DNA from: Myxococcus xanthus
GTDB taxonomy: Bacteria; Myxococcota; Myxococcia; Myxococcales; Myxococcaceae
Direction: 5' to 3'
Assembly (NCBI RefSeq): GCF_900106535.1
Contig: NZ_FNOH01000005.1
Location: 186,001 to 250,000 of the forward strand
Length of the DNA stretch: 64,000 bases
Part shown: positions 26,000 to 31,024 of the stretch, in pieces
How the letters are laid out: each line of letters begins with the position of its first letter
Numbering within the stretch: position 1 is the first letter of the stretch
Notes under the pieces: model-generated
What the model was told of the DNA's origin: nothing
What the model saw: only the letters and a program-made list of their open reading frames with translations
The model's database searches: none
Made by a program: the position numbers and the translations under genes

Positions 26000-26506
26000 C
26001 TACTGGCAGTTCGGGGGCCCCATGCAGGAGTAGGTTGCGGTGAACCCGGCCCTCATCGTGGTGGTGTTGACGCGGGTGCAGGTGCCCTGCGTCGTGACGA
26101 CGTTGCAGAGCCCCCGTGGACACGCCTGTTCGGCGAGGACCAACGCGTTTTCCTCCGCCAGGGACCATGCGGCCGGGCAGTTGAAGCCGGAGGCATAGCC
26201 CTGGGATGTGCGCTGCGTGCTCTCGCAGGTACACGGCGTCGTCGTCGGACAGTAGGTCCGGCTCCCGTTGCACTCCACCCAGCCTCCGTTGTCAGCGCCG
26301 GAGGTACAGATGCCGCTCGCGGAGCCGCAGGTGATGGACGTGCCATTCGCGCACTGCTGGCTCACCTGACAGGAGAGCTCCGCTTCGCTGCTGCCCAGTT
26401 CCAGGGACTCCTCGTGCGCGTCGCCCATGTTGCAGGCGGACAGGACCAGGACTGCGACTGCCGCCAGGACGCTTCGTTGCCAGTGCCTACCGGTTTGCAT
26501 TTGCAT
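26000..26506 (-). CDS. Cys-rich hypothetical lipoprotein
   Basis: About 168 residues from MQMQTGRHWQ with lipobox LSAC. The mature protein carries roughly a dozen Cys residues in short loops (CQVSQQCANG, CGSASGICTSG, CPTTTPCTCES, CNVVTTQGTC), indicating a disulfide-stabilised extracellular module. No domain is recognised. The frame extends upstream to 26668, into the 3' end of rnpB; that part is not coding-like. It lies 100 bp downstream of rnpB on the same strand. Confidence 0.65.
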   Translation of the reverse strand: MQMQTGRHWQRSVLAAVAVLVLSACNMGDAHEESLELGSSEAELSCQVSQQCANGTSITCGSASGICTSGADNGGWVECNGSRTYCPTTTPCTCESTQRTSQGYASGFNCPAAWSLAEENALVLAEQACPRGLCNVVTTQGTCTRVNTTTMRAGFTATYSCMGPPNCQ

Positions 26507-26608
26507 GCCGGAGACACTAGGCCCGTGAAGCAAAGCCCCTCCATCGTGGAGAACCGCAGTTCCCACGCCGAGGAGGGGGTTCCACGCGCTGACTTCAGAG
26601 GGAAAACG

Positions 26609-27005
<397 letters not shown>

Positions 27006-27061
27006 ACCTTGCGCTTACAACAGCCGGGCAGGGGCGGTCCACTCCAGGGCGTCCACCGGGC

Positions 27062-28342
27062 TCAGGAACGTCCGCTTCCGCGCGCGCAGGCGGCGGCCCG
27101 TTCGAGGAGCAGCGCGCGTTCTCGCGCGTTCGCCGTGAGGGCGGCGGCCTGCTCGAACTCCGCGCGGGCCTCGTCGAGCCGGCCCAGCTTGGCGAGCAGG
27201 TCTCCGCGGACGCTGGGCAGCAGGTGGTATCCCTGGAGTGACGGCTCCGAGGTCAAAGCGCCCACGAGGGCCAGCCCCGCCGCCGGGCCGAACGCCATGG
27301 AATGGGCGACCGCCCGATTGAGCTCCACGACAGGGGAGGGGACGACCTGGGCCAGCGTGTCGTAGAGCGCTGCGATGCGTGCCCAGTCCGTGGCCTCGGC
27401 CGTGCGCGCGCGGGCGTGGCAGGCGGCGAGGGCGGCCTGGAGCGCATAGGGGCCCTGAGCGCCTCCCAGCGCCTCGGCGCGCTCGAGCGCCGCGAGGCCT
27501 CGGCGGATGAGGAGCTGGTCCCAGAGGCCCCGGTTCTGTTCCAGCAGGAGGACGGGCTCGCCCTTCGGCCCGACGCGCGCTCGTGAGCGGGACGACTGAA
27601 TCTCCATCAAGGCGACGAGGCCATGGACCTCCGGTTCCTTCGGCGCGAGCCCCGCCAGGATTCGGCCCAGGCGCAGGGCATCCTCGCAGAGCGCGGGGCG
27701 CATCCAGTCATCGCCGGCCGTCGCCGCGTAGCCTTCATTGAAGACGAGGTAGATGACCTCGAGAACGGTCGACAAGCGGGCGGCCAGTTCCTCGCTATCG
27801 GGGACGTCGAAAGGGACGTGTGCCTCCGCGAGCGTGCGCTTGGCCCGCACGATGCGCTGGGCCACGGTGGGGACGGGGACGAGGAAGGCGCGGGCAATCT
27901 CCTCGGTCGTCAGGCCTCCGAGCAGCCGGAGCGTGAGCGCCACCCGTGTCTCCTTGGAGAGTACCGGGTGGCAGGAGACGAACATCAATCGCAACAGGTC
28001 ATCGCCCACGACGTCGTCGAGCGCGGCGTCCAGGTCTGGCGCGGCCGTGCCTTGCAGCGACTCCAGTTCGTGACCGAGTTCCTCGTGCTTGCGCTCGAGG
28101 AGCTTGCCCCTGCGCAGTTCGTCGATGGCGCGGCGCTTGGCGGTGGTCATGAGCCACGCGCCCGGGTTGTCCGGGACGCCCGTCTCCGGCCATTTTTCGA
28201 GCGCGGTGACGAGCGCGTCCTGTGCGAGTTCCTCCGCGCGGCCCACGTCGCGCACCATCCGCGCGAGACCCGCGATGAGGCGCGCCGACTCGATTCTCCA
28301 GACCGCCTGAATGGCCCGTTGTGTCTCGGTGGATGCCGTCAC
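27062..28342 (-). CDS. ECF sigma factor with long C-terminal (TPR-like) extension
   Basis: A 426-residue extracytoplasmic-function sigma factor. Sigma-2 region (about 18-85: AEELAQDALVTALEKWP, NPGAWLMTTAKRRAID) and sigma-4 HTH (about 135-190: RLLGGLTTEEIARAFLVPV, AQRIVRAKR) are clear. They are followed by about 230 residues of helical repeats (VFNEGYAAT, LNRAVAHSMAFGPAAGLAL, GRLDEARAEFEQA). This matches the ECF group with C-terminal DUF6596/TPR-like extension (ECF42), in which the extension, not an anti-sigma factor, regulates activity. ECF42 genes are usually next to YCII/DGPF proteins; none is visible here. It is divergent from the retron. Confidence 0.9.
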   Translation of the reverse strand: MTASTETQRAIQAVWRIESARLIAGLARMVRDVGRAEELAQDALVTALEKWPETGVPDNPGAWLMTTAKRRAIDELRRGKLLERKHEELGHELESLQGTAAPDLDAALDDVVGDDLLRLMFVSCHPVLSKETRVALTLRLLGGLTTEEIARAFLVPVPTVAQRIVRAKRTLAEAHVPFDVPDSEELAARLSTVLEVIYLVFNEGYAATAGDDWMRPALCEDALRLGRILAGLAPKEPEVHGLVALMEIQSSRSRARVGPKGEPVLLLEQNRGLWDQLLIRRGLAALERAEALGGAQGPYALQAALAACHARARTAEATDWARIAALYDTLAQVVPSPVVELNRAVAHSMAFGPAAGLALVGALTSEPSLQGYHLLPSVRGDLLAKLGRLDEARAEFEQAAALTANARERALLLERAAACARGSGRS

Positions 28343-28432
28343 GGGCGTAACTCAATCACCGTTCGTTCGCGGCACAAGGGGCGTGCGCGCCCGGCATTTT
28401 CTTTTTGAAAGTGCGGCGTGTACCGTCGGCGA

Positions 28433-28613
28433 GCCATGCGGCGGCTTGGACACCCAGCGGGTAGTCGGTCCGTGAAGCTGCGGTCCACTGCCTCTTCGGG
28501 GTACCCCCGGGGACAACTCATCAGGAGCACACCGTCACGCGTGGCCGTCTCCGCGGCAAGCCGCAGTTCGGGCCACGCAAGACACGACAGGTGGGGCCAG
28601 TCCGCCGCATGGC
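28433..28613 (+). ncRNA. Retron msr-msd RNA with a1/a2 inverted repeat
   Basis: Proposed retron non-coding RNA directly 5' of the reverse transcriptase. Repeat a1, GCCATGCGGCGG (28433-28444), is perfectly complementary to a2, CCGCCGCATGGC (28602-28613). After one mismatch, TTGG/CCAG adds four more pairs. Just inside a1 is CCCAGCGGG, with an AGC whose G (28457) is a candidate branching nucleotide. The msr part holds a CGGGG/CCCCG hairpin (28497-28509). The msd part holds an 8-bp perfect stem GCGTGGCC/GGCCACGC (28539-28546, 28571-28578) topped by GCGGCAAGCCGC and extended below by GTC/GAC. The arrangement a1-msr-msd-a2-RT is the canonical retron order. The ends and branch site are inferred. Confidence 0.75.
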
Positions 28614-28626
28614 GTGAGTGTGGAAG

Positions 28627-29955
28627 ATGAGCGAGCGGCACGTCGTGGCTCAGGCGCTCGCGTCCGCGTTTCTCGCGGGGCCATGGATGCTCAAGGGGCT
28701 CGTTGAAAGGGGCACGGAGGTCGTCGGAGGACGGGCGCCTTGGGTGTCGTCCCTGGCTCGCAGCGCGATGATCTTCTTCCCGCGTCCGCCGCATGCGCGG
28801 ATGGAGTTGCTCGGGGACTTGTTGGCTTCGCGCCCCGCGTTCATGCGGGGCTTCACAGACCCTTCGGCGCGTGCGCGCATCGTGCGTTGGATTTCGTCCG
28901 AGCCGCGGATGGCGCGGCAGCCGTGGCCCGTGCCGTCGCTGTCGACCCAAGCCGAACTCGCGGAGTGGTTGGGGGTGACAGGGGCGCAACTGGACTGGCT
29001 GGCGGATGTACCGGGCATCGAGCGCACGTCCTCGCCAGGGCGGTGGCGGCGCTACCGGTACACCTGGATTCCGAAGCGCAGCGGCGGTGAGCGCCTGTTG
29101 GAGCGGCCGGGATTGGACCTGGTGCTGGTCCAGCGCAAGCTGCTCCACGACATTCTGGACCACATCCCGCCGCACGACGCGGCGCATGGCTTCGTCGCGG
29201 GGCGGAGCGTTCGTCGTTTCGCGGAGCCTCACGCACGGCAGGCCGTCGTGGTGCGAGTGGACATCGAGGACTTCTTCTTCGCGGTGCGGCCCGCGCGAAT
29301 CTGGGCGGTGTTCCGCACGGCGGGATATCCGGACGGCGTAGTGCGCGCGCTCGCGGGCCTCTGCACGAACCGCACACCCAGCGCGGTGGTGTCGCAGGCG
29401 CGGCGGCCGGATTCACTCGCCGATGCGAGCACGCGCTGGCGTCTGGCGCGGAGGCTCGAATCGCGTCACCTGCCACAGGGGGCGCCCACGTCACCCGCGC
29501 TGGCCAACCTCGCGGCGTACCGGCTCGACGTCCGGCTGTCGGCGCTCGCCGAGGCGATGGGCGCGCGGTACACGCGATACGCGGATGACATGGCGTTCTC
29601 GGGTGGTGACGCATTGGCCCGGCGCACGCACAAGTTGCTGCGGTACGTGAGCCAGATTCTCCGGGAGGAGGGCTTCACGCCGCGCACAGGGAAGACGCGG
29701 GTGATGCACCGGAGCACCCAGCAGCGGCTCGCGGGCGTGGTGGTGAATGATCATCCTTCGATTCGCCGTGTGGACTACGAGCGGCTGAAGGCCATTCTCC
29801 ACCTGTGCCGCACACGAGGCCCCGCGAGTCAGAACACCGAGGGCCATCCCGACTTCCGAGCGCATCTGCTGGGACGCATCGCCTGGGTAGCGCACCTGCA
29901 TCCAGCCCGGGGCGCGAAACTGCGCGCCACTTTCGACCAGATTGCGTGGGACTGA
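28627..29955 (+). CDS. Retron-type reverse transcriptase
   Basis: A 442-residue RT; an in-frame GTG three codons upstream is possible. RT motifs are in order: WIPKRSGGERLLERP (motif 1 region), AHGFVAGRS (about 186), VDIEDFFFAV with the first catalytic Asp (about 211), LPQGAPTSPALANLAAY (about 282), RYADDMAFSGG with the catalytic YADD (about 318) and GKTRVM. The retron-specific X region reads FAEPH where many retrons have NAxxH, and the Y region reads LAGVVVN instead of VTG. About 145 residues precede the RT core, as in the myxobacterial retrons Mx162 and Mx65. It should copy msd into branched msDNA. It ends 16 bp from a convergent restriction endonuclease gene. Confidence 0.9.
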   Translation: MSERHVVAQALASAFLAGPWMLKGLVERGTEVVGGRAPWVSSLARSAMIFFPRPPHARMELLGDLLASRPAFMRGFTDPSARARIVRWISSEPRMARQPWPVPSLSTQAELAEWLGVTGAQLDWLADVPGIERTSSPGRWRRYRYTWIPKRSGGERLLERPGLDLVLVQRKLLHDILDHIPPHDAAHGFVAGRSVRRFAEPHARQAVVVRVDIEDFFFAVRPARIWAVFRTAGYPDGVVRALAGLCTNRTPSAVVSQARRPDSLADASTRWRLARRLESRHLPQGAPTSPALANLAAYRLDVRLSALAEAMGARYTRYADDMAFSGGDALARRTHKLLRYVSQILREEGFTPRTGKTRVMHRSTQQRLAGVVVNDHPSIRRVDYERLKAILHLCRTRGPASQNTEGHPDFRAHLLGRIAWVAHLHPARGAKLRATFDQIAWD

Positions 29956-29971: not shown

Positions 29972-30991
29972 CTACCCGACGGGCCAGTAGAGCTTTTTCA
30001 GGGGGACCAGCGCCCGTGTCTCCGCGTCGAGGTTCTCGTACTGCTCGACCAGAAGCTCACGAAGGTCGGAGAGCGTGAGAAGTCGGAGGGGAACCGAGGA
30101 GCGGTCTGCTTCATAACGCGCATCCTTGGTGAACCCGCCCGTGCTGACGTAGAGGCATCGGTCGCCCTGCTTGCGGCCCCCGAGAAACGCACGAATCGAC
30201 TGGGAGTTCATGGACTCGCCCACGCGGTGCTTCACCTCACAAAAGATGCGGGGTTCCTGGAGGCCCAGCCCGTCTGGCGAAGCGAAGATGTCGACACCTC
30301 GGTCCGCGCCAGGTGCGGCGACGCGCGTGCGGTAGCCCATGGCGCGGAGGATGCCCGCGACGAGTTCCTGCATCTCGCTCCAGTTCAGCCTTGCGATACG
30401 GTCCTCGATGAATTGTTCGGCCTTTTCGAACTGCTCCTCCCGGAGCACCGCTTCAGTGCCCTCGTCGCTGTCCACGGCAGGGGCCGGCGTGGGCGCCAGG
30501 GACGCTACGGGACGTTCCAGTTCCACGGCTTGCGCCCAGAGTTCCGCGGTGGCTTCCGCGCTGGGCCGAAACAATGTGGCGATGGAGCCGAGGCCGTTGC
30601 GAGTCGCCGCGCTCAACTGGTTTCGCAGGACGTGGTGCGTCCAGCGAACGCGGCGGACAAGCGGAGGCGGCCCGGCGCGGTTTTCGACGCCCGATTCGAT
30701 GCGCCCCAGTAGGTAGACGCGCTCGTTCGGGTCGTAAGTCACCGCGCTGTCGCCTTGCTCAACATCGCGCATGAACCGGCGGACCTGGGCCGCCCAGACT
30801 CGTCGGGTGCCTTCCTTGTCCTCCGGATATGCCTTGGCGAACCGGGCTTCAAGCTCATCCGCGCTCAAGTCTGGCGCGAGCGGGCCGACCTTGTCCCATC
30901 CGATGCCGACGTGCCCTTCCGCCTTGAAGGCATCGAAGAACGCGGCATCGCGGCCCGCACGGATGAACCACAGGCGCTTGTTGGCAGTCAC
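29972..30991 (-). CDS. Mrr-like restriction endonuclease (PD-(D/E)XK)
   Basis: A 339-residue protein from GTG at 30991, five bases after a G-rich ribosome site. The N-terminal domain (about 5-110; LWFIRAGRDAAFF, VGIGWDKVG, VYLLGRIES) is of the type often fused to Mrr nucleases, perhaps sensing modified DNA. The C-terminal domain (about 205-335) is a Mrr_cat nuclease: a helix with MQELVAGILRAMGY, then GADRGVDIFASPDG (Asp) and IFCEVKHR (E-x-K), followed by GFTKDARYEA. Such enzymes cut methylated or foreign DNA. It is convergent with the retron RT and 33 bp downstream of rnhA, possibly in its transcript. Confidence 0.85.
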   Translation of the reverse strand: MTANKRLWFIRAGRDAAFFDAFKAEGHVGIGWDKVGPLAPDLSADELEARFAKAYPEDKEGTRRVWAAQVRRFMRDVEQGDSAVTYDPNERVYLLGRIESGVENRAGPPPLVRRVRWTHHVLRNQLSAATRNGLGSIATLFRPSAEATAELWAQAVELERPVASLAPTPAPAVDSDEGTEAVLREEQFEKAEQFIEDRIARLNWSEMQELVAGILRAMGYRTRVAAPGADRGVDIFASPDGLGLQEPRIFCEVKHRVGESMNSQSIRAFLGGRKQGDRCLYVSTGGFTKDARYEADRSSVPLRLLTLSDLRELLVEQYENLDAETRALVPLKKLYWPVG

Positions 30992-31024
30992 CAATTCCCC
31001 CCCTGATGTCCGTCCCTGGAATGA

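Follow-up and report, generated by a model that had tools for sequence, protein, structure and literature searches.

Structure of the locus

The window, a stretch of 64,000 nucleotides of Myxococcus xanthus DNA, carries a structured RNA followed directly by a gene for a reverse transcriptase (RT); the pair lies between a sigma-factor gene and a gene for an Mrr-type nuclease. We use the term window retron for the msr-msd RNA at 28433-28613 together with the RT gene at 28627-29955, both on contig C5 of the M. xanthus genome. The features of this region are listed here by their positions in the window.

28421-28426, forward strand: -10-like promoter box (TACCGT), with the predicted RNA start just downstream
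28433-28456, forward strand: a1 arm; the core 28433-28444 pairs with 28602-28613 and the inner part 28453-28456 (CCCA) with 28592-28595
28457, forward strand: predicted branch guanosine (CAGC), directly after inner a1, unchanged in all 12 Myxococcus sequences
28461-28491, forward strand: msr stem-loop 1 (helix 3, 97.2% of cells paired)
28493-28513, forward strand: msr stem-loop 2, GC-rich (helix 4, 100% of cells paired)
28528-28591, forward strand: predicted msd with the hairpin 28533-28586 (helices 6-8, double changes in 7 of 16 pairs)
28592-28613, forward strand: a2 arm, inner part 28592-28595 and core 28602-28613
28627-29955, forward strand: retron reverse transcriptase, 442 aa from the ATG (PF00078, PADLOC RT_other, AlphaFold2 model with Ec86 as nearest fold)
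28633-28857, forward strand: five-helix domain at the N terminus of the RT (residues 6-80, numbered from GTG 28618; pLDDT 81.5)
29578-29589, forward strand: YADD catalytic motif, found in all 40 RTs aligned
29972-30994, reverse strand: Mrr-type nuclease gene, PADLOC candidate PDC-S02 (Mrr_cat 73.9 bits, PDC-S02 250.2 bits)

A first-pass annotation of the sequence had described a perfect 12-bp inverted repeat, GCCATGCGGCGG at 28433-28444 with CCGCCGCATGGC at 28602-28613, and a long hairpin between its arms. Both were recovered: the arms of the repeat are 157 nt apart, and the hairpin is formed by 28534-28557 with 28560-28583 (71% complementary). An extended listing of the repeat gives 17 nt with 88% complementarity. 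At the predicted branch and template sites CCCA (28453-28456) is followed by G28457, and G28591 by T28592. The branch context is CAGC (28455-28458), with A32, G33 and C34 of the RNA invariant in 12 of 12 sequences; this is a sequence context only, and it is also the branch context of Mx162 and Sa163 according to the available part of PMC6868368. Folding of the window RNA was matched by one of 200 dinucleotide shuffles (z -3.35), and the DNA strand of the msd folds at -19.4 kcal/mol (z -2.42). Arm length was tested on two close orthologues with 13-bp arms (L001 and L002), the window being outside this test; arms this long arose in none of the 40 mononucleotide shuffles made of each.

A covariance search with the Rfam models, one of the checks proposed with the annotation, gave no retron match for the window; nothing in the locus reached the gathering score, and three sub-threshold matches were judged to be chance. 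Rfam misses the retrons at the Mx65 and Mx162 loci as well, so this result is not evidence against a retron.

A plain sigma-70 scan found no promoter at the locus; the promoter box came from the comparison of relatives. The motif TAnnnT begins 10-18 nt before a1 in 23 of 29 loci. When counted in 17 bins of 10 nt it occurs in 21 of 29 loci in the bin from -20 to -11 and in 0-2 of 29 in the 16 others; these loci are not independent and seven of them share one locus. The box is absent in L004, L005, L006, L007, L008 and L160, and TTGACA was seen by eye 16-18 nt ahead of it in L009 and L157-L159. The position of TAnnnT upstream of a1 suggests that the RNA should begin at or close to a1.

Conservation of the RNA in Myxococcus

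From a1 to a2, a span of 181 nt, the RNAs of 12 Myxococcus genomes align without a gap. Conservation falls away beyond the arms, where only one of the 16 columns just outside a1 and a2 reaches 90%. After addition of a more distant copy from genome G001 (RT 48% identical), the alignment of 13 sequences predicts 60 pairs, with 95.9% of cells paired. Computed on this alignment, 15 pairs have changed on both sides compared with 5.2 in shuffles, and none of 500 shuffles was as high; the shuffles leave the relatedness of the sequences in, and the structure was derived from the same alignment. When the partner was slid, 1-6 pairs had changes on both sides. Judged from these sequences, the comparative evidence for the RNA is stronger than that from single-sequence folding.

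The G001 copy (L096) combines its 48% identical RT with a clearly related RNA and a different branch-site sequence, CAACTCAAGG. This retron is possibly a separate acquisition.

A covariance model, R1, was built from the alignment of 13 sequences and used to search 145 genomes of the order. It gave 17 matches, 13 in the genus (27 genomes) and four in another genus of the family. Computed in this way, RNA and RT occur together: the matches in the genus fall in precisely the 13 genomes with a full-length RT and in none of the 14 that lack a full-length copy, all 13 being sequences of R1's own alignment. Three of the four matches outside the alignment (G046, G039 and G107) have an RT of 70-73% identity directly downstream; the fourth, G052, is a decayed RNA with an RT remnant of 25 aa. 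Loss of a1/a2 complementarity in relatives that keep the RT, which the annotation had named as evidence against a retron, was looked for and seen in none of the 16 full-RT loci of genus and family.

The reverse transcriptase

The open reading frame 28618-29955 encodes 445 aa counted from GTG 28618. Most orthologues begin (MS..) at the position of ATG 28627, not at this GTG, and the RT therefore is most likely 442 aa long and starts 13 nt after a2. The distance of 13 bp between a2 and the RT, as first annotated, is right provided that this ATG is the start. The 445-aa frame contains the annotated motifs QGAPTSP and YADD, and also FAEPH in place of NAxxH and LAG in place of VTG.

FAEPH keeps the A and the H of the retron motif, and LAG the G. 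NAxxH and VTG are typical and not defining: in the accessible portion of PMC6868368 the exceptions among 16 validated RTs are Mx65 and Ec48 for the N, and Vc81 and Ec48 for VTG. F-x-x-P-H and (L/V)AG are found in 16 of 16 RTs of genus and family; farther away the motifs are YAAPH/LAG in L004, FVAPH/LAG in L006 and FAAPH/IAG in L008, and three RTs of the wider clade (L003, L009 and L015) keep VTG. At the level of sequence, FAEPH and LAG are lineage marks.

The window RT matches PF00078 with 68.2 bits. Its best PADLOC models are RT_other (554.7 bits) and RT_outgroup (521.9 bits), which are also the best models for L003 and L096 (Myxococcota), L005 (Verrucomicrobiota) and L010 (Actinomycetota). 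The curated cut-offs for group II intron maturases and DRT proteins in NCBIfam were not reached: group II TIGR04416 scored 47.8 (cut-off 300), Drt2 33.5 (cut-off 390) and Drt3a 20.3 (cut-off 200).

An AlphaFold2 model of the RT, computed with an alignment of 34 window and locus sequences, has a pLDDT of 88.6 and a pTM of 0.73. In a Foldseek search with this model ranks 1-18 are all retron chains, with Ec86 at the top (E 7.3e-21). VIA-align also places Ec86 best (Z 27.6, rmsd 2.7, 296 residues aligned), followed by G2L4 RT (Z 20.2), group II RT (19.0) and DGR RT (19.0); the retron chain 9l7p_E, at Z 17.6, scores lower than the group II and DGR chains. The N-terminal five-helix domain can be recognised in relatives as far apart as Myxococcus, Verrucomicrobia, Gammaproteobacteria and Actinomycetota. 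It has no Pfam match and no PDB fold at E <= 0.001, which does not imply a new fold.

The phylogenetic position of the RT was estimated with a quick tree of 66 hand-picked rows, with SH-aLRT support only, three of six group II loci and no DGR row. The window RT groups with 14 close relatives from genus and family (SH-aLRT 100); next comes L096 and then a cross-phylum group. The three group II RTs form their own branch (SH-aLRT 100). A position among group II intron or DGR enzymes had been named as a result that would speak against a retron. The window RT is not among the group II RTs in the tree, and DGR RTs, which were compared by fold only, score lower. The order a1-msr-msd-a2-RT and the class of the RT are both in line with the retron reading of the first-pass annotation, and the computational tests run support it.

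Relatives in other phyla

R1 was also run on 47 of 80 RT loci and on 21 other sources; the 33 loci omitted were mostly from Chitinophaga and Flavobacterium. A match upstream of the RT with E <= 0.01 was found in 11 of the 47 loci, two of which (L001 and L002) are Myxococcus loci already in the R1 alignment and hence not independent. The other nine are from Labilithrix, two Woeseiaceae, a Chromatiales, two Verrucomicrobia, a Bradyrhizobiaceae, an Acidimicrobiales and an unclassified MAG. Matches were weak in L021 (E 0.04) and L016 (E 0.69), and within the RT clade L011, L012, L013, L014 and L024 gave no R1 match upstream of the RT. R1 further matches three replicons of Burkholderia and one plasmid of Tsukamurella, with E 0.0003-0.0034. 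An off-site match on the minus strand of L159 has E 0.0042, nearly equal to the weakest real-looking value of 0.0034; the RNAs of Burkholderia, Tsukamurella and L010 therefore rest also on their position and on the outer helix. The window included, the layout of window-type RNA and RT occurs in four phyla, Myxococcota, Pseudomonadota, Verrucomicrobiota and Actinomycetota. The best-kept element in distant relatives is msr stem-loop 2, which is seen in the Verrucomicrobia, Labilithrix and Woeseiaceae alignments.

The outer helix was sought again in 13 distant loci, where it has 9-17 pairs and quite different a1/a2 sequences. In nine of these loci none of 60 shuffles gave a helix as good; in L005, L007, L009 and L157 the numbers were 2, 2, 4 and 16 of 60, the L157 helix being no better than shuffled sequence. 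In 10 of the 13 loci the last pair of the best helix is A-U, the base that follows it on the a1 side is G, and the adjoining template base on the a2 side is likewise G; this pattern was selected for, and in those 10 loci it is also the best helix overall. The layout is missing in L005, L007 and L009 and in the nearer L096. For the window, L087 and L088 the automated pairing preferred another helix, although the same letters are invariant. From the branch G to the template base there are 135 nt in 12 rows of genus and family and in L004, L006 and L008. That a1/a2, the AG context and the G beside a2 recur with different sequences points to a priming duplex.

This recurrence bears on the alternative that the locus encodes a DRT-like defence RT, which would use the upstream RNA as a template for another product (repeats or long cDNA) and would form no branched msDNA. 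Such a reading would agree with the missing linked effector gene and the altered retron motifs; an ncRNA next to the RT is, moreover, also a feature of DRT2 in the available part of PMC12039810. However, retron RT profiles and folds are clearly ahead, and the elements of the putative priming duplex recur in distant loci. We consider a DRT-like system very unlikely and retain the retron as the preferred reading.

Other RTs were seen in these genomes. A further family of retron-type RTs in Myxococcus (L097-L113, except L109 and L110) is 45-48% identical to the window RT, with frames mostly of 470-513 aa; it often occurs in genomes without the window retron, and the tree places it away from Mx65 and Mx162. 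L109 and L110 have 469-aa frames that resemble that of Mx65. R1 found no match at E <= 1 in the loci of this further family. A further distant RT, at G008:C1:9809992-9810672, consists of two matched pieces of one 339-aa open frame.

Neighbouring genes

The Mrr-type nuclease gene is the next gene after the RT, and its product has a restriction-endonuclease domain. This would make it a candidate for the effector of a tripartite retron. It lies 16 nt beyond the RT stop, but is convergent, on the opposite strand. Among seven genomes with the window locus it is intact beside the retron in just two (this one and G024). The G013 copy of the gene has an internal deletion, and no copy was found at this place in G010, G007, G014 and G022; in G022 the borders of the missing part are right behind the retron. 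Conversely, G025 has a full-length Mrr gene where the retron is deleted. As read from these sequences, Mrr is gained and lost independently of the retron, and a tripartite system with Mrr as effector is very unlikely.

The search for another linked gene gave a similar picture. Six retron-bearing genomes (G012, G009, G006, G005, G008 and G001) have none of the window neighbours in 18 kb around the retron. In a comparison of 18 loci (1132 ORFs of at least 80 aa within 6 kb, blastp E 1e-8) neighbours were common to 12 of 153 locus pairs, all of them inside three groups with shared context and none between groups. The groups are the window locus with G007 and G010, then G005, G006, G008, G009 and G012, and finally two Verrucomicrobia; G001 and seven distant loci share no neighbours. 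The neighbours listed for Burkholderia pyrrocinia are metabolic and cell-wall genes. By this computation no gene is linked to the retron across contexts. Because different contexts have no neighbour in common and Mrr is unlinked, we read the window retron as an orphan, unless its effector is fused or encoded elsewhere. The N-terminal domain of the RT could be such a fused effector.

Two other observations concern the surroundings. In G007, HSP70-, Lon-like and DnaJ-TPR genes are among six ORFs scanned between the retron and rnh (L117 9800-18000); a weak BrxL match of the Lon-like gene (44.8 bits) was read as a shared Lon-type domain. The window also contains a bacterial RNase P RNA of class A at 26607-27002 on the reverse strand (303.5 bits), and the ORFs 26414-27241 and 26661-27365 across it are unlikely to be genes.

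Loss of the retron in relatives

Two relatives carry decayed copies, in which RNA and RT are damaged together. In G025 (L125) a deletion removed most of the RT together with the msd, leaving a1, some of the msr and short fragments of the RT end. In G052 (L156) the RNA is damaged and the RT remnant has 25 codons. The loss of the window-type retron in these two relatives indicates that it is dispensable. The G023 locus could be matched only on the rnh side, and a clean empty site was not obtained.

Deleted or degenerate copies of this kind raise the question of whether the M. xanthus retron is itself decayed or silent and kept by chance. Here, however, the frame is open and the catalytic motif intact, the RNA has compensatory changes and the RT is 95% identical to that of G013 at the protein level, whereas in G025 and G052 both components are affected. 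Decay is a highly improbable explanation for the window locus.

Relation to Mx65 and Mx162

The genome has three RVT_1 matches, namely on C5 (window), C27 and C7. The published position of the Mx65 RT in M. xanthus DSM 16526 is FNOH01000027.1 37959-39242, as given in the available part of PMC8934634. On C27 exactly these coordinates are occupied by a frame that opens with ATG, closes with TGA and comprises 427 codons and the stop; the genome analysed is thus most likely the DSM 16526 assembly. The Mx65 RT thus sits on C27 of the same genome, and it is practically certain that the window retron is distinct from Mx65. The first-pass annotation had left open whether the locus was Mx65, a variant of it or a new retron; Mx65 drops out of this list and a retron of a separate clade stands. 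That the window retron is Mx65 or a strain variant, which the same species and a similar expected cDNA size might suggest, is negligibly probable given the position of Mx65 on C27, an RT identity of 40% (residues 94-435) and the separate clades.

We take the C7 RT to be Mx162, a presumed identity assigned by exclusion, by its NA..H and VTG motifs and by its type XIII neighbours. Its motifs are NALAH and VTG, and its frame is 485 aa long, the length of the Mx162 RT. The C27 and C7 RTs have RT_XIII as their best PADLOC model (434.8 and 509.8 bits), and both lie outside the clade of the window RT in the tree. Comparison with Mx65 and the presumed Mx162, as recommended in the annotation, gave 40% identity over the common part, separate clades and a window RT for which RT_XIII (310.5 bits) is not the best model.

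The type XIII partners show the same division. HEAT-ARM_XIII and SWIM_XIII genes precede Mx162 on C7, and a SWIM_XIII gene precedes Mx65 on C27. These are the only two SWIM_XIII genes of the genome; there is one strong HEAT-ARM match (1606 bits, C7), and the other 34 (<= 79 bits) include none near the window retron. With RT_XIII not its best profile and SWIM_XIII/HEAT-ARM_XIII absent nearby, the window retron is outside type XIII. Among three records of relatives (the L003 and L010 genomes and a B. pyrrocinia replicon) SWIM_XIII was found in the L003 genome only, anywhere in the genome being counted.

Discussion

The identity of the window locus as a retron is very probable. We are equally confident that it is a complete retron, that it belongs to a clade apart from Mx65 and Mx162 and that it can be read as an orphan, in that no linked effector gene accompanies it. 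The production of msDNA and its function are predictions, for which we propose the following course. The promoter box, ending just before a1, would drive synthesis of the retron RNA. In this RNA a1 would pair with a2, and two msr stem-loops and the long msd hairpin would form. Translation from the ATG 13 nt after a2 would yield the RT, which would bind the RNA, and the 2'-OH of G28457 would prime cDNA synthesis opposite about G28591. Copying through the hairpin to about 28528 would give a branched msDNA with about 62-66 nt of DNA. This agrees with the earlier estimate of 60-70 nt for the cDNA, which is reasonable. Priming, the branch and the cDNA ends, with the 5' end opposite about 28591 and the other end at about 28528, are inferred from known retrons; the chemistry and ends follow those described in the part of PMC6868368 that was available, and the layout rests on the conserved anatomy.

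Most speculative is the idea, drawn from analogy, that the retron defends against phages, with the N-terminal domain of the RT, or a protein encoded elsewhere, replacing a linked effector. A broader possibility is a class of retrons with only two parts, RNA and RT, present in at least four phyla and previously unnoticed in M. xanthus, in which the five-helix domain acts as effector or sensor; we put this forward tentatively, and regard it as somewhat doubtful.

msDNA is said to have been isolated first from M. xanthus, in a paper of 1984. No third retron of this species is named in the literature searched, which was available in part and did not include the 2020 retron classification and a 2021 review. 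A third M. xanthus retron, from another clade and without type XIII partners, would make it possible to compare three retrons in a single harmless laboratory host. With its promoter, branch site and template start predicted in several phyla, the RNA family opens the question of effector-less retrons to direct tests, and compact new RT-RNA pairs are of interest for DNA production in cells.

How does the window retron compare with known systems? It shares the genome with Mx162 and Mx65, and as in these the RT has a long N-terminal part; the branch context CAGC is that of Mx162, and the missing N of NAxxH is shared with Mx65, which has GAAPH (Mx162 and Mx65 features as reported in the accessible text of PMC6868368). 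In contrast to this likeness the RTs are only 40% identical over the common part and apart in the tree, and R1 has no match at E <= 1 in the Mx65 and Mx162 loci. Ec86 (Eco1) is the best solved fold for RT residues 99-445, but identity is 25% over the 296 residues and the alignment does not take in the N-terminal helices of the window RT. Ec86 has a linked effector (title of entry 7v9x; PMC11624263, available in part), unlike the window retron. Retron-Bth1 is similar in that it lacks an obvious effector and is unclassified among retron RTs; it differs in coming from Bacillus, in being extrachromosomal and in having a group II intron inserted, and the likeness is by description only (PMC12548924, available portion). 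The PADLOC models RT_other and RT_outgroup match over their full length, although RNA and partner are not described for these models. Later surveys list "outgroup" retrons, which may cover the clade of the window retron. The locus is accordingly of a kind already known, with its RT clade represented in PADLOC, and its RNA family, its promoter, branch and template anatomy and the missing linked partner set it apart as a variant that merits testing.
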